DNA of 64,000 bases from Thioalkalivibrio sp. XN279 (GTDB taxonomy: Bacteria; Pseudomonadota; Gammaproteobacteria; Steroidobacterales; XN24). Location of the stretch: positions 1 to 64,000 of the forward strand of contig NZ_JAANBD010000015.1 of the NCBI RefSeq assembly GCF_011089885.1. Direction: 5' to 3'. The notes beneath the pieces are model-generated. The model had not been told where the DNA came from. It worked only from the letters and a program-made list of their open reading frames with translations, and ran no database searches. Position 1 is the stretch's first letter, and the number at the start of each line of letters is the position of its first letter. A program made the translations under genes and the position numbers. Positions 9,776 through 61,653 of this stretch are shown here, one piece after another.

Positions 9776-10407
9776 GCGTGACCCCGCGGCGCGTCGTGCT
9801 GGCCAGCGGCAACGCCGGCAAGGCCCGCGAAATAGGCGCCCTGCTCGCCCCGGCCGGCATCGAGATCCTGTCGCAGGCGGACTTCGGCCTCGAGTCCGCC
9901 GCGGAAACCGGCCTGACGTTCATCGAGAACGCCCTGCTGAAGGCGCGCCATGCGGCGCAGGGCAGCGGGCTGCCGGCCATTGCCGACGACTCGGGCCTGG
10001 TGGTCGACGCCCTCGGTGGGGCGCCGGGCATCCATTCCGCGCGTTATGCCGGCGGGGGCGGAGATGCCGCCAACATCGCGCGGCTGCTGGCTGCGCTTGA
10101 CGGCGTACCGCCGGCGGAGCGCTCGGCCCGTTTCGTTTGCGTCGCGGTCTTCCTGCAGGGCCCCGCGGACCCGCTGCCGCTGGTGTGCCAGGGCGCCTGG
10201 GAGGGACGGATCGCGACTCGCCCGCGCGGCTCCGGCGGCTTCGGGTACGACCCGGTGTTCCTGCCGTTGGGTGACCAGCGCAGCGCCGCCGAGCTCGCGC
10301 CCGAGGAGAAGAACCGTTGCAGTCATCGCGGGCGCGCCTTCGCCGCGCTGCGGCTGCGGCTGTCCGGTTCCGCGCTAGCGGGCGACGCCGGCGCGGGTGC
10401 GTCGTAG
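9772..10407 (+). CDS. rdgB: dITP/XTP pyrophosphatase RdgB (Ham1)
   Basis: A 211-residue house-cleaning nucleotidase that hydrolyses dITP, ITP and XTP to monophosphates, keeping non-canonical purines out of DNA. The N-terminal [14 protein letters not shown] substrate loop, [38 protein letters not shown] and [10 protein letters not shown] are all family motifs. The ATG overlaps the rph stop. The C-terminus runs about 10 residues beyond the usual end and is Ala/Gly-rich. hemW follows after 2 bp, forming an rph-rdgB-hemW operon. Confidence 0.96.
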
Positions 10408-52275: not shown

Positions 52276-55200
52276 ATGGGCCCGGGTTTCTTCATCGATC
52301 GGCCGGTCTTTGCGTCGGTCATCTCGATCGTCATCCTGCTGGCCGGTCTTGCCGCCCTGCGCGCCACCCCGGTGGCGCAATACCCCGAGGTGGCGCCGCC
52401 GACCGTGACCGTGACCGCGGTGTACCCGGGCGCGACCGCCGAGGTCATCGCCAACACCGTTGCGGCGCCGATCGAGCAGCAGGTCAACGGCGTCGACGGC
52501 ATGATCTACATGAGCTCGACGAGCTCGTCCTCGGGCGCGATGACCCTGACCGTGACCTTCGCCCCGGGCACGGACCCCGACATCGCCCAGGTCAACACGC
52601 AGAACCGGGTGAGCCAGGCGCTGGCGCAGCTGCCGGAGGTGGTGACGCGCCAGGGCGTGAAGGTGGAGAAGAAGTCCTCCAGCTTCATGATGCTGGTCAG
52701 CTTCTATTCCGAGGACGACTCGCTCGACCCGCTGTTCCTGAAGAATTACGTCAACCTGTACGTGCTGGATGCCGTCAAGCGACTGCCGGGCGCCAACCTG
52801 GCCAGCGTGTTTCCGCCGCCGGAAGTGGCGATGCGCATCTGGCTGCAGCCCGACCGCATGGCCCAGCTCGGCGTCACCACGACCGAGGTGGCGAATGCGA
52901 TCCGCGGCCAGAACCAGGCCTTCGGCGTCGGCCAGATCGGCCAGGCGCCGGTCCCTGAGGGCACGCAACAGAACTTCCCCATCACCAGCCAGGGCATGCT
53001 GGCGACGGCCGCGGCCTTCGAGGACATCATCATTCGCACCGGCGGCCCGGGTGGCGACGCCGCCATCGTGCGCCTGCGCGACGTGGCGCGCGCCGAACTG
53101 GGGGCCCAGAGTTATTTCGTCGAGAGCAAGCTCAACGGCCGCAACGCCGCTGCACTGGTCGTCTACCAGCAGCCGGGCTCGAACGCCCTCGACACCTCCG
53201 CCCGGGTCCGCGCCACGCTCGAGGAGCTGTCCGCAAGCTTTCCGGACGGCCTCGCATACAAGGTGGTCATGGACACCAGCGAGTTCACTGCCGCTTCCAT
53301 CGAGAAGGTGATTCATACCTTCTTCGAGGCGGTGGTGCTGGTGGTGCTGGTGGTGTTCCTGTTCCTGCAGAGCCTGCGCGCAACCATCATCCCGACCCTG
53401 GCCGTGCCGATCGCCATCATCGGCGCCTACATCGGCATCTATGCGCTCGGCTTCTCCACCAACATGCTCACGCTGTTCGGCATGATCCTGGCCATCGGCC
53501 TGGTGGTGGACGACGCGATCATCGTGGTCGAGGCGGTCGAGCACAAGATGGCCACCAAGGGCATGACGCCGCGCGCGGCCGCGCACGAGGCCATGCAGGA
53601 GCTGACCGGGGCGCTGATCTCCATCGTGCTGGTGCTGGCCGCCGTCTTTCTCCCGGTCGCTTTCCTCGGTGGCATGACCGGCACGTTGTACAAGCAGTTC
53701 GCGATCACCATCGCCATCGCCATGGTGTTCTCGGGCATCGTCGCCCTGACCCTGTCGCCCGCGCTCGCGGCGCTGATCCTCAAGCCCGGCCATGGTGAGA
53801 AGAAGGGCTTCTTCCTCGCCTTCGAACGCGGCTTCGAGCGCGTCACCGACTACTACATCGCCGGCGTGCGCTGGCTGTTGCGACATCGGCTGGTCGGCGT
53901 CGGGCTGTTCCTCGTCACGCTGGTCGGCGTGGTCGGCCTGTTCCGCATCCTGCCCTCCAGCTTCGTGCCGGAGGAGGACCAGGGCTACATCTTCACGGCC
54001 GTGATGCTGCCGGACGCGGCCAGCCTGGAGCGGACCACGGCCACCAGCGATCGCGTGACCGAGGTGCTGCTGGCGCATCCGGCGATCGCCGATGCCGCGC
54101 AGATCGATGGCTTCAGCCTGCTCGACGGGCAGACTCGCAGCAACGCCTCGGCGATGTTCGTCGCCCTCGAGCCCTTCGCGGAGCGTGGCGAGAGCGGGGA
54201 CAGCGCCTTCAGCGCCATCGCCGAGCTGCAGCGCGACCTGGCAGGCGTGAAGTCCGGCCTCGCGTTCGCCGTCAACCCGCCGGCCGTCCCCGGTCTCGGC
54301 GTGACCGGCGGCTTCGATTTCTACCTGCAGGATCGCGCCGGCGGCAGCCCCGAGCAACTGGGACAGGCGGTGCAGGCCTTCGTCGCCGCGGCGCGCCAGC
54401 GCCCGGAACTGGCCGGCGTGTCGAGCACTTACTCGGCAAGCCAGCAGCAGCTCTACCTGGAGGTGGACCGGCCGCGCGCCGAGCTGCTCGGCGTGCCGGT
54501 GCAGGACGTGTACGGCACGCTGCAGGCTTACTTCGGCTCCATGTTCGTGTCGCAGTTCACCCAGTTCGGCCGCGTCTGGCAGGTCATCATGCAGGCCGAG
54601 GGCGAGTACCGTGACGACCCGGCCGATCTCGACGGCATCTACCTCACCTCCCGTGACAACGAGGTGCTGCCGCTGTCGGCGGTGGCGGAGCGCCGCTTCT
54701 CGGCGGGACCGACCCTGCTGAGCCGCTTCAACGGTTTCCCCGCCGCCAAGGTGACCGGCAGCGCCGCACCCGGGTTCAGCTCGGGCCAGGCCCTCGCCAC
54801 CATGGAGGAGGTGGCGGCCGCAGTGTTGCCGGAGGGCTACGGCTTCGCCTGGGCCGGGCAGGCCTACGAGGAAAAGCAGGCCGGCGGCACCTCCGCCATC
54901 GCTTTCGTGTTCGGCATCGTCATGGTGTTCCTGATCCTGGCGGCGCAGTACGAGAAGTGGACGCTGCCACTCGGCGTGCTGCTCGCGGTGCCGTTCGCCA
55001 TCCTCGGCGCGCTGCTGCTGACCTGGGGCCGCGGGCTGGAGAACGACGTCTACTTCCAGGTCGGGCTCGTGACACTGATCGGGCTGGCGGCGAAGAACGC
55101 CATCCTGATCACCGAGTTCGCCGTGGAGAACATGCACGCCGGCATGTCGCCGGAAGACGCCGCGGCGGAAGCCGCGCGCGCACGCCTGCGGCCGATCGTC

Positions 55201-55431
55201 ATGACCTCGCTGGCCTTCATTCTCGGCTGCGTGCCGATGGCCATCGCCACCGGTCCCGGCGCCAACAGCCTGCACGCCATCGGCACCGGCGTGATCGGCG
55301 GCATGCTGGCCTCGACGCTGATTGCCTCTTTCTTCGTGCCGCTGTTCTTCGTGCTGCTGGAGGGACGGCGCAAGCCCGCCGCGCCGGGCGCGGCGACGGA
55401 AGCCGCGACGCATGACGGAGGGGCGCACTGA
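52276..55431 (+). CDS. RND multidrug efflux pump (AcrB/MexB family)
   Basis: A 1051-residue HAE1-type inner-membrane proton antiporter, the normal family length. It starts with FFIDRPVFASVISIVILLAG, the conserved first helix. GLVVDDAIIVVEAVEH near residue 405 holds the paired Asp residues of the proton relay, and the transmembrane Lys region lies near 940. QYPEVAPPTVTVTAVYPGA is the pore-domain signature. It is coupled 7 bp after the adaptor and overlaps the channel gene by 1 bp (TGATG). Substrates are probably amphiphilic drugs or solvents, inferred from the family only. Confidence 0.96.
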   Translation: MGPGFFIDRPVFASVISIVILLAGLAALRATPVAQYPEVAPPTVTVTAVYPGATAEVIANTVAAPIEQQVNGVDGMIYMSSTSSSSGAMTLTVTFAPGTDPDIAQVNTQNRVSQALAQLPEVVTRQGVKVEKKSSSFMMLVSFYSEDDSLDPLFLKNYVNLYVLDAVKRLPGANLASVFPPPEVAMRIWLQPDRMAQLGVTTTEVANAIRGQNQAFGVGQIGQAPVPEGTQQNFPITSQGMLATAAAFEDIIIRTGGPGGDAAIVRLRDVARAELGAQSYFVESKLNGRNAAALVVYQQPGSNALDTSARVRATLEELSASFPDGLAYKVVMDTSEFTAASIEKVIHTFFEAVVLVVLVVFLFLQSLRATIIPTLAVPIAIIGAYIGIYALGFSTNMLTLFGMILAIGLVVDDAIIVVEAVEHKMATKGMTPRAAAHEAMQELTGALISIVLVLAAVFLPVAFLGGMTGTLYKQFAITIAIAMVFSGIVALTLSPALAALILKPGHGEKKGFFLAFERGFERVTDYYIAGVRWLLRHRLVGVGLFLVTLVGVVGLFRILPSSFVPEEDQGYIFTAVMLPDAASLERTTATSDRVTEVLLAHPAIADAAQIDGFSLLDGQTRSNASAMFVALEPFAERGESGDSAFSAIAELQRDLAGVKSGLAFAVNPPAVPGLGVTGGFDFYLQDRAGGSPEQLGQAVQAFVAAARQRPELAGVSSTYSASQQQLYLEVDRPRAELLGVPVQDVYGTLQAYFGSMFVSQFTQFGRVWQVIMQAEGEYRDDPADLDGIYLTSRDNEVLPLSAVAERRFSAGPTLLSRFNGFPAAKVTGSAAPGFSSGQALATMEEVAAAVLPEGYGFAWAGQAYEEKQAGGTSAIAFVFGIVMVFLILAAQYEKWTLPLGVLLAVPFAILGALLLTWGRGLENDVYFQVGLVTLIGLAAKNAILITEFAVENMHAGMSPEDAAAEAARARLRPIVMTSLAFILGCVPMAIATGPGANSLHAIGTGVIGGMLASTLIASFFVPLFFVLLEGRRKPAAPGAATEAATHDGGAH

Positions 55432-56831
55432 TGGCGCCCATGGGGCCCATGGCGCGCGGCGCGGTCACCGCTTGCCTGGCGCTGGCGCTGGGCGCCTGCG
55501 CCGTCGGGCCGGATTACGAGCGCCCGGCGCTCGACATGCCCGAGGACTGGCGCGTCATGCCCGGCGAAGCCGTCGCGCTGGCGAATGCCGAGTGGTGGAC
55601 CCAGCTTGGCGACCCGGTGCTTGACGAGCTCATCGCCACCGCGCTGGCCGGGAACCTGGACGTGCGCATCGCGGCGGCGCGGGTCGAGCGCTTCAGCGCT
55701 GCCCTGCAGGTTTCGCGCTCCGCCCTCATGCCGCAGCTGGGCTACGGCGTCGGCGCTGAGCGCAGCCGCACCAGCGAACTGTTGCTGCCCTCGGGTGCCG
55801 ATCCCTACAGCACGCAGTACCAGGCCGCGCTCAGCGCCAGCTGGCAACTGGACCTGTTCGGCCGCGTGCGACGCGAGTCGGAGGCCGCGCAGGCACGGGT
55901 GTATGCCAGCCAACAAGGGCAGCAAGGCGTGATGCTGTCGCTCACCGCCAGCGTGGCCGCGGCCTATGTCAGCTTGCGCGCGCTCGACCGCCAGCTGGAA
56001 ATCGCACGCGCGACGGCGGCAAATCACGAGGACACGCTGCGCATTTTCCGGCTGCAGCACCAGCAGGGCGTCGTCTCCCGCCTCGAGGTGGCGCAGGCCG
56101 AGTCCCAGTACGAGCAGGCCGCGGCGACCATCCCGCTGCTCGAGGGGCAGGTGGCGGCACAGGAGAACCTGTTGTCCATCCTGCTCGGCACCCCCCCGGC
56201 CCCGGTGCCGCGCGGGCTGACGTTGGCGGAGCTCGCAGTGCCCGCGGTGCCCGCGTCGCTGCCGTCCGAGCTGCTCGCGCGCCGCCCGGACGTGCTGCAG
56301 GCCGAGCAGAACCTGGTCGCGGCGAATGCCGACGTGGGAGCGGCGAAAGCCCTGTATTTCCCCGACATCTCGTTGACCGGGGCGCTGGGCCAGGTGAGCG
56401 CAGCGCTGGGCGACCTCACCGACAGCGCCGCGCGCAGCTGGAGCGCGGGCGCCGCGATCGCCGGTCCGCTGTTCACCGGCGGTGCGGTGAGTGGCCAGGT
56501 GGCGGCCGCAGAAGCGGCGCGCGAAGAGGCGCTGCTGGGATACGAGGCCACGGTGCTGGAGGCGTTGCGCGAGGTGAATGATGCGCTCGCCGGCGTGACT
56601 GCCACTGCAGGGAATTACGCGGCCCTGGAGCGGCGCGCCGATGCCTTGCGCGATTTCGCGCGGCTGGCGCGCATGCGCTTCGATGCCGGTGCGGCCAGCT
56701 ACCTGGACGTGCTGTACGCGGACAACGAGCTGTTCGCGGCCGAGCTGGCGGCGATCGCGGCGCGCCAGTCGCAGCAGGTCAACATGATCACGCTCTACCG
56801 GGCGCTCGGCGGCGGCTGGCCGGAAGGCTGA
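55431..56831 (+). CDS. Outer membrane efflux channel (OprM/NodT family lipoprotein)
   Basis: A 466-residue trimeric outer-membrane factor. A signal peptide with lipobox LGAC (Cys near residue 23) is followed by VGPDYERPALDMPEDW, typical of NodT-family proteins. Two repeated TolC-like alpha-barrel halves follow (ARRPDV-type LLARRPDVLQAEQNLVAANADVG, split). It completes the three-gene RND operon and may also serve the upstream ABC exporter, which lacks a channel gene. Confidence 0.94.
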   Translation: MAPMGPMARGAVTACLALALGACAVGPDYERPALDMPEDWRVMPGEAVALANAEWWTQLGDPVLDELIATALAGNLDVRIAAARVERFSAALQVSRSALMPQLGYGVGAERSRTSELLLPSGADPYSTQYQAALSASWQLDLFGRVRRESEAAQARVYASQQGQQGVMLSLTASVAAAYVSLRALDRQLEIARATAANHEDTLRIFRLQHQQGVVSRLEVAQAESQYEQAAATIPLLEGQVAAQENLLSILLGTPPAPVPRGLTLAELAVPAVPASLPSELLARRPDVLQAEQNLVAANADVGAAKALYFPDISLTGALGQVSAALGDLTDSAARSWSAGAAIAGPLFTGGAVSGQVAAAEAAREEALLGYEATVLEALREVNDALAGVTATAGNYAALERRADALRDFARLARMRFDAGAASYLDVLYADNELFAAELAAIAARQSQQVNMITLYRALGGGWPEG

Positions 56832-56899
56832 GCGGTCTGCGGGGGAGGGGCCGCCATGGGCCCTCGAATCCGTCGCAACGGCACCGGCGAATCCTGCAA

Positions 56900-56992
56900 T
56901 GTGACGGTCGTCACGATCAGGAAAAGTACTTAAAACAATCGTCTACGAGCTTGATCCAGGTCATGTTCCGGCCCTGGCCCGGTGGATATTAT
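56900..56992 (+). promoter_or_regulatory. CRP- and FNR-like sites with -10 box
   Basis: TGTGA-CGGTCG-TCACG (56900-56915) matches the CRP consensus at 9 of 10 bases. TTGAT-CCAG-GTCAT (56951-56964) resembles the FNR/ANR box. TATTAT (56987-56992) is a good -10 with no -35, as expected of an activated promoter. With a start near 56999 the two sites are centred at about -91.5 and -41.5. Confidence 0.5.
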
Positions 56993-57032
56993 TCTGGCCG
57001 GTTAAGCTTGATTCAGAGCCAAGGAGGCTGCC

Positions 57033-57146
57033 ATGGAAACCCGCAAGACCGCTGCCCGGACCAGGTCGTCCGCCAGCGAACAGGACGCCCGGCTGGGTCG
57101 CCGGTCCCGTCGTCGGCGCCGCCAGGCGCACGCCCGTCGCGCCTGA
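57033..57146 (+). CDS. Small Arg-rich ORF, 37 codons
   Basis: The ATG at 57033 has a perfect AAGGAGG Shine-Dalgarno (57021-57027) with 5-nt spacing. The peptide begins METRKTAARTRSSASEQ and ends in a run of Arg (RRSRRRRRQAHARRA), so it is highly basic and could bind nucleic acid or acidic surfaces. It has no homologue I can name. The upstream region carries a complete predicted activator-dependent promoter. The ORF stands alone between two convergent genes. It may also be a regulatory RNA that happens to encode a peptide. Confidence 0.5.
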   Translation: METRKTAARTRSSASEQDARLGRRSRRRRRQAHARRA

Positions 57147-57161
57147 GGACGGCAAGAGGAG

Positions 57162-57210
57162 GGGGCGAAGCGCACGCCGCGACAATCACTCGCCGCGTCG
57201 CCTTCGCCCC
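57162..57210. terminator. Hairpin between the small ORF and the symporter gene
   Basis: GGGGCGAAG (57162-57170) pairs with CTTCGCCCC (57202-57210), with additional GC-rich pairing inside. It lies between two convergent units and may end both, but has no T-run. Confidence 0.35.
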
Positions 57211-57248
57211 GCACCAGGCCCCCGCAACACCCCCCGCGTTCAAACCGC

Positions 57249-58580
57249 TCAAGCCAGTCCCCGCCGCCCCAGGATCCGCCGCGACAGGATCGCATGCGCC
57301 CGCCGTCCGAGCGGGTAGCGCCACGCCAGCACCATCATCGGTACCAGCAGCAGGCAAGGCCAGGCCACGAAGGCCAGCTTGAGGCCCAGCGCCGCCTGGG
57401 CTGACATCGCGTCCTTCGCCGTGAAGCCGAACAGCGCCGGGATTGCCAGCGCGATGGCGCCGCCCACGCCCTGGTTGAGCTTGGTTACCAGCGCCTGGAA
57501 GGAAAAGAAGATCGCCGCGCGATCCCGGCGGTTGCGCCAGATGTCGTAGTCCACGATGTCCGCCAGCAGCGACGGCAGGGCGATGGAGGACAGGCCGAGG
57601 AAAAAGCCGAAGCTGGTCATGATGGCCATCATCGGGCGCAACGACGCCGGGCCCGGTTCCAGCCAGGGGACGCACAGCAGGGTGAGGATCATGCCGCCGG
57701 CGGCCGCAGCCCAGGCGCGATGCTTGTCGACCCGGCGCATCACCTGCAGCCACAGCGGCATGCCCAAGGCCATGGCCAGCGTCATCGGCAGGGCGATGTG
57801 AGGCACCTTGTCCGGCAGGCCGAGGTACTGGCTGGTGTAGATCACGAACAGGCTGGCGACCGCGCCGGTGGCAAGGCCGAACAGCACCTGCGTGACGAGG
57901 AAGTACTGCAGCGGCGGGTTGTCGCGCAGCGCCCGCCACAGGTCGCCCGGGCGCACCGGGCGCGCCTGCACCCGGCGCGCCGGCTCGGCCACGGTGAAGC
58001 ACATCAGGACCACCGCGAGCGGGAGGCCGAGCATGATGAACAGCGCCAGCACGCGCATCACGGCCGGGCTGAACTCCGTCGTTCCGCCCACCAGCAGCAT
58101 GGGCGAGGCCATGAACAGGATGCCGCCGGCAAAGCCGAGCAGCTGGCGCCACAGCACGATCCTGGAGCGTTCGTGGTAGCCGGTAGACAGCTCGGCCGCC
58201 ATGGCCGTGTGCGGGATCTCGACCAGGGTCCAGCCGAGCGTGACCAGCAGGTACCAGGCCAGCAGGTGGCCCAGGCCGGCGTCGGCGGCAGGGTTGAACA
58301 GGAACCAGGTGCCGGCCGCGACCACGACCGCGCCGAGCACCATCCAGGGCTTGCGTGTCCCGGAGCGGTCGGACAGGTATCCGATCAGCGGGTCGGAAAT
58401 GCCGTCGAACAGCCGCGCGATGAAGGTGGCGGTGGCCAGCCCGGCCAGCGTCACCGCGCTGTACTCGAGATAAAAGTTGGGCAGGATCGCCGCGGTGGGC
58501 GACATCAGCATGGACAGCGGCAGGTTGACCAGCCCGAACAGGATCAGCAGGGGGGTCGGCAGGCGGGAATGGGGGTTCAT
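57249..58580 (-). CDS. GPH-family sugar:cation symporter (MFS)
   Basis: A 443-residue, 12-helix transporter. FIARLFDGISDPLIGYLSDRSGTRKPWM (split over the loop after helix 2) is the glycoside-pentoside-hexuronide family hallmark. DIVDYDIWRNRRDRAAIFFSF is the matching motif in the second half. It should import a glycoside or sugar acid with Na+ or H+. The ATG at 58578-58580 is preferred to one 13 codons upstream. It is divergent from an outer-membrane porin gene, which would supply the same substrate. Confidence 0.88.
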   Translation of the reverse strand: MNPHSRLPTPLLILFGLVNLPLSMLMSPTAAILPNFYLEYSAVTLAGLATATFIARLFDGISDPLIGYLSDRSGTRKPWMVLGAVVVAAGTWFLFNPAADAGLGHLLAWYLLVTLGWTLVEIPHTAMAAELSTGYHERSRIVLWRQLLGFAGGILFMASPMLLVGGTTEFSPAVMRVLALFIMLGLPLAVVLMCFTVAEPARRVQARPVRPGDLWRALRDNPPLQYFLVTQVLFGLATGAVASLFVIYTSQYLGLPDKVPHIALPMTLAMALGMPLWLQVMRRVDKHRAWAAAAGGMILTLLCVPWLEPGPASLRPMMAIMTSFGFFLGLSSIALPSLLADIVDYDIWRNRRDRAAIFFSFQALVTKLNQGVGGAIALAIPALFGFTAKDAMSAQAALGLKLAFVAWPCLLLVPMMVLAWRYPLGRRAHAILSRRILGRRGLA

Positions 58581-58663
58581 GACGACCGATTCTGCGCTCT
58601 TTCGGCCTGCGCCAGGCATCAGGAATCCGCTGCCTAAGCGCTAACAAACCTTAAGCAAAACAA

Positions 58664-58677
58664 CGGGTTGCAACCCG
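58664..58677. promoter_or_regulatory. Perfect palindrome CGGGTTGCAACCCG at the porin promoter
   Basis: A 14-bp palindrome without spacer that covers the predicted -35 TTGCAA of the porin gene. It is a candidate operator for a local repressor. A second, less perfect symmetric sequence TAAGCGCTAA (58635-58644), of LacI-operator style, lies upstream. Confidence 0.45.
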
Positions 58678-58695
58678 GATTCAAGCGACTAGACT
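58668..58695 (+). promoter_or_regulatory. Predicted porin promoter
   Basis: TTGCAA (58668-58673) and TAGACT (58690-58695) with a 16-bp spacer; start near 58702, 34 nt before the ATG. Confidence 0.45.
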
Positions 58696-58735
58696 GTGGC
58701 GGTTAAGCAACGAGTCTAGCAACTTGGGGAGAAAC

Positions 58736-59857
58736 ATGAGACATGGACGCACCTTCACCGCGGCGCTGGCCGCTTTCCTGCTCGCACTGCCCGGCACGGT
58801 TCCGGCCGAGGACGAGGGCATCGAGTTCGGCGGCGCGGTCCGGCTGAACTACGCCTGGCGCGACTACGACGACACCAACAAGGACCGCGCCGGCGACTTC
58901 GAGCTCGAGCTGTTCCGCATCAACGTCCGCGGCACCGTCGGCGAGGTCATGCTCAACGCCGAGTGGCGTCGCTACAACGACTTCCAGGCCATCCACCATG
59001 CCTGGGTCGGCTACGAGTTCGACGACAACAGGCACATGGAGCTCGGCATCACCCAGGTGCCCTTCGGCATCCTGCCTTATGCCTCGCACAGCTTCTGGTT
59101 CGGCGGCACGTACTACATGGGCTTCGAGGACGACTACGACACCGGCGTGAAGTTCGTGCACGAGGCCGGCGACTGGGACTTCCATTACGCCTTCTTCAAG
59201 AACCCCGAGTATGCAGATCACAGCCGCGCGGACCGCTATTCCTTCGACCTGGTGACGGGTGGCGACCAGCAGAATGAAGAGATCAACCAGCTCAACTTCC
59301 GCGCCGCGCGCACGCTCACCCACAGCGACACCCGCAGCACGGAGCTCGGGTTGAGTCTCGAGGCCGGCCAGATCTACAACAACGTGACCACGGACACCGG
59401 GGACCGCTGGGCCGTGGCGGCGCACATGAACGGCAACTACGGCAAGTGGAACCTGCAGCTGCAGGGCGTGGCCTACGAGTTCAACCCGGAGAACCCGGTC
59501 GGCGTGTCGGACGATTTCGTCCAGCTCGGCGCCTTCGCCTTCCCCTTCCTGATGGCGGCCAAGGGCGAGGTCTACTCGGCCAACGTGGCGCGCTCCTTCG
59601 ACCTCGACTGGGGACCGGTCACGGGTGTGACCTGCTACAACAACTTCACCTACATCGACCCGCGCGTGGACAACTCGGCCGAGTCCATGCAAAACGTCAC
59701 CGGCTGCGCCTTCTCCGCGGGCGGCCTGTACACCTACGTCGACTGGATCGCCGGCAAGAACATGTGGTTCGCCGGCGGCGACGGCATCGGCCTGGACGGC
59801 GCTTCCGCCGGCAAGTGGCGTTCCCGGCTGAACATCAACCTCGGCTACTACTTCTAG
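58736..59857 (+). CDS. Outer membrane porin
   Basis: A 373-residue beta-barrel protein. A signal peptide (GRTFTAALAAFLLALPGTVPA) precedes strands alternating aromatic and polar residues (VRLNYAWRDYDD, HMELGITQVPFGILPYASHS). The C-terminus NINLGYYF ends in Phe, the outer-membrane insertion signal. Features suggest an OprO/P or carbohydrate porin type. The ATG at 58736 follows GGGGA. The divergent symporter gene suggests that it admits a sugar. A strong intrinsic terminator for it lies inside the opposing arsS gene. Confidence 0.85.
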   Translation: MRHGRTFTAALAAFLLALPGTVPAEDEGIEFGGAVRLNYAWRDYDDTNKDRAGDFELELFRINVRGTVGEVMLNAEWRRYNDFQAIHHAWVGYEFDDNRHMELGITQVPFGILPYASHSFWFGGTYYMGFEDDYDTGVKFVHEAGDWDFHYAFFKNPEYADHSRADRYSFDLVTGGDQQNEEINQLNFRAARTLTHSDTRSTELGLSLEAGQIYNNVTTDTGDRWAVAAHMNGNYGKWNLQLQGVAYEFNPENPVGVSDDFVQLGAFAFPFLMAAKGEVYSANVARSFDLDWGPVTGVTCYNNFTYIDPRVDNSAESMQNVTGCAFSAGGLYTYVDWIAGKNMWFAGGDGIGLDGASAGKWRSRLNINLGYYF

Positions 59858-59864
59858 CCGGGTC

Positions 59865-60824
59865 TCAGCTCAGTGCTCCGCCGCAGCTGGAGCCCTGGCC
59901 GGCGGTGCAGCCATAACAATGCTCCCCCACCGCGATGCGGCGGGGGAGCTTTTTTTCGTCCAGCAGGTCGCGCAGGTGGGGACTGTCGCCTGCGTCGCCC
60001 AGCGCCATGCCCAGCATCTGGTTGAAGTCGCAGTCGTAGAGGAAGCCCTGGTAGTCCACGCTGACCAGGTTGCGGCACATGACGCTTTTCAGGTTGTCCG
60101 CCCGGTAGGCGTTTTTCAGCAACGCCATGTAATCGTGGTACTGCCCCTTGGACAGGAGGATGGCACCGAAGCGCTTGATCGGCATGTTGGTGATGGTGAA
60201 CAGGGCGTTGAACTCGATGCCGAACTCCTCTCCGAGCAGGCGCTTGTAGTCCGCTTCCAGCGCCTGCTGCGGCGGCGGCAGCGAGGCTCCGAGCGGGTTG
60301 TACACGAGGTTCATCTGCAGTCCCGTACCGGGGCGGCCGTAGCCCAGCGAGTTCAGTTCCTGCAGCGCGCTGATGGAGGCCTCGAAGACCCCGTTGCCGC
60401 GCTGCGCGTCCACGTTCTCCTTGGAGTAGCAGGGCAGCGAGGCGATGACCTCCACCCGGTGCTCCGCCAGGAAAGGGCCCACCCAGTCGTAGCCGGGCTC
60501 GCGCATGATGGTCGGGTTGAGCCGGTCCATGACGTGAATCCCGCGCTCGCGCGCCGCGGCGACCAGCCAGCGGAACTCAGGGTTCATCTCCGGCGAGCCG
60601 CCGGTCAGGTCCAGCGTGCCGACGCCATGACGTTGCGCGACTTCCAGCGCCAACTCCATGGTGGCGCGGTCCATCAGCTCCTTGCGTGTCGGCCCGGCGT
60701 TCACATGGCAGTGCACGCAGGCCAGGTTGCAGAGATAACCGAGGTTGAGCTGCAGCGTGTCGAGGCGCTCGCGCCGGATGCGGGGGAAATCCGTCTCCTG
60801 CAGCAGCGGCAGGGTGTCACGCAT
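59865..60824 (-). CDS. arsS: Radical SAM protein ArsS (arsenosugar biosynthesis)
   Basis: A 319-residue radical SAM enzyme. The cluster motif CNLACVHCHV (CX3CX2C) lies near residue 32, then TLDLTGGSPEMNPEF. The DUF3641-type C-terminus contains CYGCTAGQGSSCGG, which in some members has selenocysteine; here all positions are Cys. ArsS is associated with adding an adenosyl-derived sugar to methylated arsenic. No arsM is in this window, so the link is by family only. The ATG at 60822-60824 overlaps the desaturase-like gene by 8 bp. It converges on the porin gene and hosts its terminator. Confidence 0.88.
   Translation of the reverse strand: MRDTLPLLQETDFPRIRRERLDTLQLNLGYLCNLACVHCHVNAGPTRKELMDRATMELALEVAQRHGVGTLDLTGGSPEMNPEFRWLVAAARERGIHVMDRLNPTIMREPGYDWVGPFLAEHRVEVIASLPCYSKENVDAQRGNGVFEASISALQELNSLGYGRPGTGLQMNLVYNPLGASLPPPQQALEADYKRLLGEEFGIEFNALFTITNMPIKRFGAILLSKGQYHDYMALLKNAYRADNLKSVMCRNLVSVDYQGFLYDCDFNQMLGMALGDAGDSPHLRDLLDEKKLPRRIAVGEHCYGCTAGQGSSCGGALS
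59921..59956 (+). terminator. Intrinsic terminator of the porin gene, within arsS
   Basis: GCTCCCCCACCGC (59921-59933) pairs with GCGGCGGGGGAGC (59937-59949) with one mismatch and a GAT loop, followed by seven T's (59950-59956). It works only in the plus direction: on the minus strand the hairpin is followed by ATTGTT. It lies 63 bp after the porin stop and inside the convergent arsS coding sequence. Confidence 0.85.
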
Positions 60825-61653
60825 GGGGCTCTCCGTCGGCGGGCGCGTCCGCCCGCGCGGCACGCGGCGTCGGGCGGAAGGGGTTGAGCAACAGAGAGAC
60901 CAGTCCCTGGTCGCGGGGTTCCCGCCATTGCTCGAGCCCGATCGGCATGCGGCGCTCGTCCTCGGCCGGCTCCACGGTGTAGCTGCGGAACACGCGGTCC
61001 CATACGGAGAGGTGGAAGCCGTAGTTGCTGTCGGTCTCGACGCGGCGCGTGGAATGGTGGATGCGATGCATGGAGGGCGTGACGAACACCCAGCGCAGGC
61101 GGCGGTCCAGCGCTCGCGGCAGGGCGATGTCGGTGTGGGTGAACAGCGAGCCGAGGCTGAGCAGCACCTCGAAGGCCAGCACCGCAACCGGGTGTGGCCC
61201 GAGCAGCGAGATCAGCGCCAGCTTGAAGCCCATGGAGAGCGCGATCTCCAGCGGGTGGAAGCGCACGCCCGTGGTGACGTCGAAGGCCGTGTCGCAGTGG
61301 TGCACCCGGTGCAGCCGCCACAGCAGCGGGACGGTGTGCATGAGGCGGTGCTGCCAGTAGATGGCGACGTCCAGCAGCAGGATGGCGGCGGCGATCTCCA
61401 GCCACGCCGGCCACGCCAGCAGCCCGAACAGGCCGCCGCCGTGCACCTGCGCGGCCCAGGCCACGGCCAGCACCGGAAAGCCGACGCGCAACACGCCGGT
61501 GCTGACGGCTACCATGCCGAAATTGACCAGTTGCCGCCGTGCCGGGCGGCCGTCGCCGCGCGCGGGCCAGCGCCTCTGGGCCGCGTAGAGCAGCAGCAGC
61601 AGGCCGAAAAAAGCCCCGAAGCGGACCAGGGCTTCGTTTTGCTCGAATTCCAT
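60817..61653 (-). CDS. Sterol desaturase/fatty acid hydroxylase family protein
   Basis: A 278-residue membrane di-iron enzyme. Four to five hydrophobic segments surround the three His boxes HRLMH (near residue 103), HRVHH (near 117) and HRIHH (near 198). It could hydroxylate or desaturate a lipid or isoprenoid; the substrate is not determined by sequence. It is the first gene of a two-gene unit with arsS. The start is the ATG at 61651-61653. Confidence 0.9.
   Translation of the reverse strand: MEFEQNEALVRFGAFFGLLLLLYAAQRRWPARGDGRPARRQLVNFGMVAVSTGVLRVGFPVLAVAWAAQVHGGGLFGLLAWPAWLEIAAAILLLDVAIYWQHRLMHTVPLLWRLHRVHHCDTAFDVTTGVRFHPLEIALSMGFKLALISLLGPHPVAVLAFEVLLSLGSLFTHTDIALPRALDRRLRWVFVTPSMHRIHHSTRRVETDSNYGFHLSVWDRVFRSYTVEPAEDERRMPIGLEQWREPRDQGLVSLLLNPFRPTPRAARADAPADGEPHA

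Follow-up and report, generated by a model that had tools for sequence, protein, structure and literature searches.

The intergenic stretch behind an RND efflux gene pair in Thioalkalivibrio sp. XN279 raises the question of whether it holds a small gene under oxygen control and, if so, what that gene makes. FNR/ANR regulons have largely been compiled from genes that are annotated, and annotation often passes over ORFs of 35-37 codons. The small gene described here is a likely FNR target that such regulon lists could miss, with a spacing between regulator box and -10 hexamer that is kept to the base across three genera despite a changed neighbourhood. The window is the whole stretch of 64,000 nucleotides that was analysed, and all coordinates refer to it.

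The small gene and its parts

The initial annotation described an Arg-rich ORF behind CRP- and FNR-like sites, and direct reading of the sequence agreed with it on the coordinates of the CRP-like site, the FNR-like box, TATTAT, AAGGAGG and the ATG (Table 1). With the predicted start, the two box centres also fall where it had placed them. Its distance of 34 nt from the predicted start holds for the ATG and not, as it was worded, for the AAGGAGG.

Table 1. Features of the small gene and its immediate neighbours in the window.
Feature	Coordinates	Strand	Basis or remark
RND efflux pair (AcrB-type protein and outer-membrane factor), upstream neighbours	latter ending 56831		
CRP-like site TGTGACGGTCGTCACG, TGTGA-N6-TCACG, centre -91.5	56900-56915	.	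read from sequence; role uncertain
AAAACA, putatively UP-element-like	56932-56937	+	invariant columns in the six-unit alignment
FNR/ANR-like box TTGATCCAGGTCAT, centre -41.5	56951-56964	.	read from sequence and unit comparison
-10 hexamer TATTAT, 22 nt after the box	56987-56992	+	same spacing in 6/6 units
Predicted transcription start	56999	+	set by the positions of box and -10
Shine-Dalgarno AAGGAGG, 5 nt before the ATG	57021-57027	+	its GAGG invariant in the six-unit alignment
37-codon ORF METRKTAARTRSSASEQDARLGRRSRRRRRQAHARRA plus TGA, ATG at 57033	57033-57146	+	net charge +11; pI 12 by calculation, at the program's upper limit
3' hairpin without U-tract; candidate end of the transcript, or terminator acting on both convergent genes	57162-57210	+	kept in three congeners
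MFS_2 transporter, convergent downstream neighbour	57249-58619	-	

Homologous units in related genomes

Homologous units were found in six of the seven genomes of the bacterial family, distributed over three genera and three gene neighbourhoods. The first genus comprises the window's genome (G000), G001 and G002, with the unit beside efflux genes; the second comprises G005 and G006, with the unit beside a helix-hairpin-helix protein gene; and the third is represented by G004, where the unit lies between moaE-like and phaB-like genes (names by reading). The next downstream gene is convergent in all six units, being an MFS transporter in the window and, by likeness, in G001, a flavodoxin-like reductase in G002, the helix-hairpin-helix protein in G005 and G006, and the moaE-like gene (by reading) in G004. 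As judged from these sequences, the unit stays together though its surroundings change.

The units were obtained at different levels of support. Of 39 relatives searched with the DNA, 11 had matches at E up to 0.01, and the only strong ones besides the window itself were two of the same genus, G001 (1.5e-57) and G002 (1.2e-34); G001 is Thioalkalivibrio sp. XN8, a 3323-nt stretch being wholly contained in the XN8 record. Peptide searches added G005 (E 0.0675, and E 0.0022 in a second search) and G006 (E 0.023), whose homology by protein alone is weak, lying inside the range of other Arg-rich matches (down to E 5e-4), and leans on the promoter layout. The unit in G004 was detected at E 3.3e-7 with a covariance model that was built from these five units on sequence only. 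No unit turned up in the seventh genome, G003, an assembly in 210 contigs that is 92% complete; the best match there was the fnr/ompW promoter.

Wider searches covered overlapping samples of the order, drawn from one pool, and a sample of the class. Among 396 genomes of the order, 36 had a protein match at E up to 0.1 and 234 at E up to 0.5. The sequence-only covariance model R1 matched 76 of 396 genomes in an order sample of the same size and 40 of 369 genomes of the class at E up to 0.01; model R2, likewise sequence-only, matched 21 of 376 genomes of the order at E up to 5e-4, six of them known units. Among 12 covariance-model matches read in one batch, G004 was a unit and the other 11 were not, and a further nine yielded none. 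The Arg-rich protein matches read individually were G005, G006 and G148 only; the last lies at a contig end and was dropped, no unit being recognised there by eye. None of the matches read from outside the bacterial family was convincing. A peptide-profile scan of a genome-contig collection returned 589 pattern matches with none confirmed, which says little, XN8 being present there yet unreported. Relatives of the neighbouring efflux gene were surveyed at 44 loci, some of them truncated at contig ends, and there the unit occurred only in XN8 (the G001 contig). A search of plasmids gave no match. A literature search of partial coverage found no paper on this gene. By these searches the small gene is narrow in range, and its regulation and function are predicted here from its sequence. 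FNR promoters and Arg-rich mini-proteins are known in kind; their pairing and the family appear new within the searches made.

Selection on the reading frame

The comparison of ORF and promoter in related genomes that the initial annotation had proposed revealed the bias towards synonymous change for which it had called, with the box-to--10 spacing and the ORF kept in all six units. Pairwise dN/dS among the three congeners was 0.32, 0.28 and 0.30. The 22, 26 and 23 base differences between them lead to only 7, 8 and 6 amino-acid changes, respectively, vs 13.1, 15.0 and 13.4 expected, about half of chance and a level reached in 0.08%, 0.06% and 0% of 5000 random placements. The changes at first, second and third codon positions numbered 6/4/12, 7/5/14 and 7/4/12, and this third-position excess is, at the level of sequence comparison, evidence for coding. 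Between G005 and G006, pS was 0.96 and pN 0.32. The five-unit alignment has a single gap, two codons long, and the residues invariant in all five are M1, R4, K5, R20, R23, R24, R27-R30, Q31, A34 and R36; in the G004 peptide the central Arg core is kept and the end is not. The openness of the frame itself proves nothing, because frame +1 is also open in five of the six units and the ORF is covered by long antisense frames.

From the GGAGG of the Shine-Dalgarno sequence through codon 8 (57023-57056), only one base differs among the three congeners (L002 and L003 equivalents), although across the ORF as a whole 35-43% of synonymous sites differ. The near-invariant stretch might reflect an RNA-level constraint on the translation start.

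Promoter layout

In all six units exactly 22 nt separate the end of a TGA-N6-TCA box from a TANNNT hexamer, and the distance from the box to the ATG is 66-72 nt. The boxes themselves vary: on the FNR consensus, G006 carries a perfect site (TTGATCTGGATCAA, 10/10), and the window scores 8/10, G005 7/10, and G001 and G002 6/10 each. By eye, the G004 box also scores 8/10, with a poor -10 (TAGTCT), and the six-unit alignment requires a 13-nt insertion between AAAACA and the box in this genome. The same G004 box (TGTGATCTGCATCACT, L173) fits CRP at 9/10 as well as FNR (by eye), and this hybrid could possibly mark a regulator switch at one site. The leader between the -10 and the Shine-Dalgarno sequence is poorly conserved.

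In the excerpted text of PMC4886647, a TTGAT-N4-ATCAA box centred near -41.5 defines class II FNR control, and the FNR sites of E. coli ompW are placed at -81.5 and -126.5; therefore, ompW is not under class II control there. At the small gene, an FNR-type box near -41.5 was found in 6/6 units by layout, the start sites being predicted. The arrangement resembles the class II promoters of E. coli FNR and Pseudomonas Anr in its TTGAT-N4-ATCAA-type box at -41.5 with a -10 downstream, and in a genome that encodes FNR with four Cys ligands and the E-x2-SR helix. It is unlike them in the off-consensus boxes of two congeners, the conserved AAAACA upstream and the extra CRP-like site in two species. 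The proposal of an FNR-like site in class II position thus gains from the spacing and ORF kept in 6/6 units, and a class II-type FNR promoter layout before a conserved small protein gene is supported by comparison of the six sequences.

The predicted peptide and what it might bind

The gene, its reading frame, the selection on it, the promoter layout and the presence of FNR are all shown at the level of sequence. The explanation that we consider the most probable, with moderate confidence, is a class II FNR-activated, single-gene mRNA of about 210 nt for an Arg-rich helical peptide, probably binding RNA or the ribosome. At low oxygen, 4Fe-4S FNR (ANR) dimers would bind the -41.5 box and bring in RNA polymerase in the manner of class II promoters, yielding a short mRNA from about 57000 to about 57212 that would end at the hairpin. 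Translation from the AAGGAGG/ATG would give a strongly basic peptide of 35-37 residues with an invariant Arg core, most likely one helix, which may bind RNA or the ribosome during oxygen limitation.

The net charge ranges from +8 to +12 across the members, with a calculated pI of 12, the program's ceiling. AlphaFold2 on the single window sequence gave one helix over residues 3-36 with a mean pLDDT of 83 (96 for residues 21-30) and a pTM of 0.47, which is weak support because an isolated Arg-rich peptide is often modelled as a helix. The proposed RNA or ribosome binding is judged from the charge, the Arg core, the predicted helix and the presumed timing; neither a partner nor a solved structure nor a homolog hints at such a target. 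Sra/S22 and THX are small basic proteins associated with the ribosome, and the peptide is likewise short and very basic; unlike them, it has no match in Pfam, NCBIfam or PDB. Five members had no Pfam family at E up to 10 and the sixth none at E up to 1, HMMER filters dropping most matches above about 0.1. No match was obtained from NCBIfam for five members, from PHROGs for six, or from PDB sequences for the profile of five, and the NCBIfam, Pfam and PDB searches gave no relation to a known ribosomal or ribosome-associated protein.

A serious rival, unlikely in our estimate, is that the FNR-controlled peptide binds a protein, such as a sensor kinase or an enzyme, instead of RNA or the ribosome. 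According to the excerpt of PMC12501420, the small Arg-rich DUF1127 proteins YjiS and an Agrobacterium set bind PhoR, and CcaF1, another DUF1127 member, is reported to bind RNA. The DUF1127 proteins YjiS and CcaF1 share with the peptide its shortness and Arg-richness, but the peptide has no Pfam match of any kind and none of its six members matched the DUF1127 profile; no sequence relation to these proteins was found.

If the peptide of the preferred reading binds ribosomes or RNA, oxygen sensing would be linked directly to translation or RNA turnover in these bacteria. A bolder version, tentative and of modest probability in our estimate, is the following: an unnamed protein family, confined to one bacterial family within the scope of the searches, in which FNR switches on a single-helix Arg-rich peptide that coats or re-programs RNA or ribosomes without oxygen. 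If true, this would tie oxygen to translation by a route distinct both from hibernation of the RMF/HPF type and from small RNAs.

Transcript and RNA fold

The initial annotation had left open a small protein or a regulatory RNA. A small protein is favoured by the synonymous bias of the changes and by the poor conservation of the leader, while a regulatory RNA is disfavoured. A short single-gene transcript of the roughly 210 nt that it had foreseen is supported by comparison, through the box-to--10 spacing in 6/6 units and the 3' hairpin in the three congeners. This hairpin has a fold z of -3.45, with none of 200 shuffles as good, and RNAalifold on the three congeners gave 21 pairs; of these, five show a double change (three in the 3' stem, the other two in a short outer helix) and one is broken in a single case. 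By eye, compact GC hairpins followed by T-runs stand directly after the stop codon in G005 and G004, and no clear 3' hairpin was seen in G006.

The active product could also be the RNA itself, an FNR/ANR-dependent small RNA like SicX with an ORF that is incidental or secondary (a dual-function RNA), which we regard as quite improbable. SicX (PA1414) of Pseudomonas aeruginosa has the same outline, an Anr-type box and a short Anr-dependent transcript that was first annotated as a small gene; in the excerpted text of PMC10247376 it acts as RNA on ubiUVT and is reported only from P. aeruginosa. The near-invariance of the DNA from the Shine-Dalgarno sequence to codon 8, more than coding needs, also fits an RNA product, as do the 9/30 pairs with at least one double change in the five-unit RNAalifold. 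However, the net covariation term of that fold is unfavourable (+2.52), the majority of the pairs that vary in it are disrupted in one sequence or another, and selection at the present locus acts on codons. SicX, compared here by its published description and not by sequence, acts as an RNA, whereas here the ORF itself is under selection. The poor conservation of the -10-to-Shine-Dalgarno leader points the same way, and the Rfam search of 55000-59000 gave three matches, none near its gathering score and all to viral or plant miRNA families.

FNR and other candidate activators

An FNR ortholog with C-x2-C-x5-C, a fourth Cys and an E-T-x-S-R helix is encoded in 7/7 genomes of the family, and Pfam backs the CRP-family membership of the window genome's own FNR and CRP proteins, the latter at L116 (name by reading). 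A second FNR-like protein with C-x2-C-x5-C (L109, G000:C27:331512-334604) adjoins an NsrR-like Rrf2 gene, by reading.

The window's genome contains 30 TTGAT-N4-RTCA sites vs one of the backward control pattern, a control that contains a stop codon word. The 13-nt box core of the small gene recurs at exactly one other of the 30, between fnr and ompW (TTGATCCAGGTCAA). Among the 19 sites read, only this one and L125 were judged to lie directly before a gene; the rest fall within long frames or in places hard to assign. The fnr/ompW box stands 21 nt from TAGAAT on the ompW side, and L125 has no -10 at 22 nt. As far as these sequences go, the exact 22-nt spacing is a feature of the small-gene unit, repeated at neither of the two other gene-preceding sites read. 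FNR-type boxes occur in the fnr/ompW intergenic region of both G000 and G003, and the same 13-nt core is also present in the fnr locus of G004 (these loci being L124 2507-2520, L194 and L118 848-861). Judged by eye, the distance from the G003 box to TAGAGT, towards ompW, is 22 nt.

The activator at -41.5 might instead be another CRP/FNR-family protein, either CRP or the Cys-bearing FNR-like protein beside the NsrR-like gene, with a signal other than oxygen through FNR; we hold this to be rather improbable. Both proteins are encoded in the genome, the G004 box fits CRP slightly better than FNR, and the G001 and G002 boxes are poor FNR matches. Against this, the window box is the fnr/ompW box in its 13-nt core, the G006 box is a full FNR consensus, and FNR itself is found throughout the family.

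Of the oxygen and carbon control that the initial annotation had envisaged, the carbon half fared poorly. The CRP-like site (9/10) is common to the window and G001 only, in both 50 nt from the FNR box, and the whole intervening stretch is conserved too. At that place the site is degenerate in G002, and none was found in G002, G005 or G006 by scan or in G004 by eye. Carbon control is thus weak and, judged from the sequences, at most a lineage-specific possibility in two species.

Motif frequencies and the least probable explanations

None of the motifs is decisive by itself, each being at or near chance frequency, and the evidence for the small gene therefore comes from comparison. The CRP-like site at no more than one mismatch has one match in the window vs 0.76 expected, 53 of 100 shuffles containing one, and AAGGAGG has nine vs 4.3. 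The FNR consensus at no more than two mismatches has 14 matches in the window vs 4.7 expected; it is thus three times commoner than in shuffles, none of 100 of which reached 14. A general sigma-70 promoter scan found none at the small gene with 0.1 expected, a null that fits an activator-dependent promoter without a -35 and proves nothing. In combination the motifs are unusual: when the upstream 140 nt of the window's unit were shuffled by dinucleotides, only 2 of 20000 shuffles held a box, 22 nt and TANNNT, correctly placed relative to the ATG; the corresponding numbers per 20000 were 0 for G001, 0 for G002, 2 for G005, 1 for G006 and 5 for G004, figures that are descriptive, the 22-nt rule having been read off the first five units and the model that found G004 already containing the layout.

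A chance ORF behind chance motifs in GC-rich DNA, to which the single-motif frequencies, the abundance of Arg-rich matches in GC-rich genomes (the 234/396 above), the open frame +1 and the antisense frames would lend themselves, is ruled out by selection and layout, with frame, promoter spacing and hairpin all conserved, and we give it almost no credence. An Arg-codon leader peptide (attenuator) for a downstream gene, suggested by the Arg-codon run and the hairpin behind it, is ruled out by the convergent neighbour in 6/6 units, which leaves no co-directional gene downstream, and is no less far-fetched.

Other features of the window

The tRNA scan of the whole window found one tRNA-Ser (10053-10143). 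Beyond the MFS_2 transporter, a porin-like ORF (by reading; 58724-59857, plus strand), with no Pfam match at E up to 0.001, adjoins a radical SAM gene. The latter, at 59865-61187 on the minus strand, encodes a radical SAM protein with DUF3641, which we take to be an arsenosugar-type ArsS.
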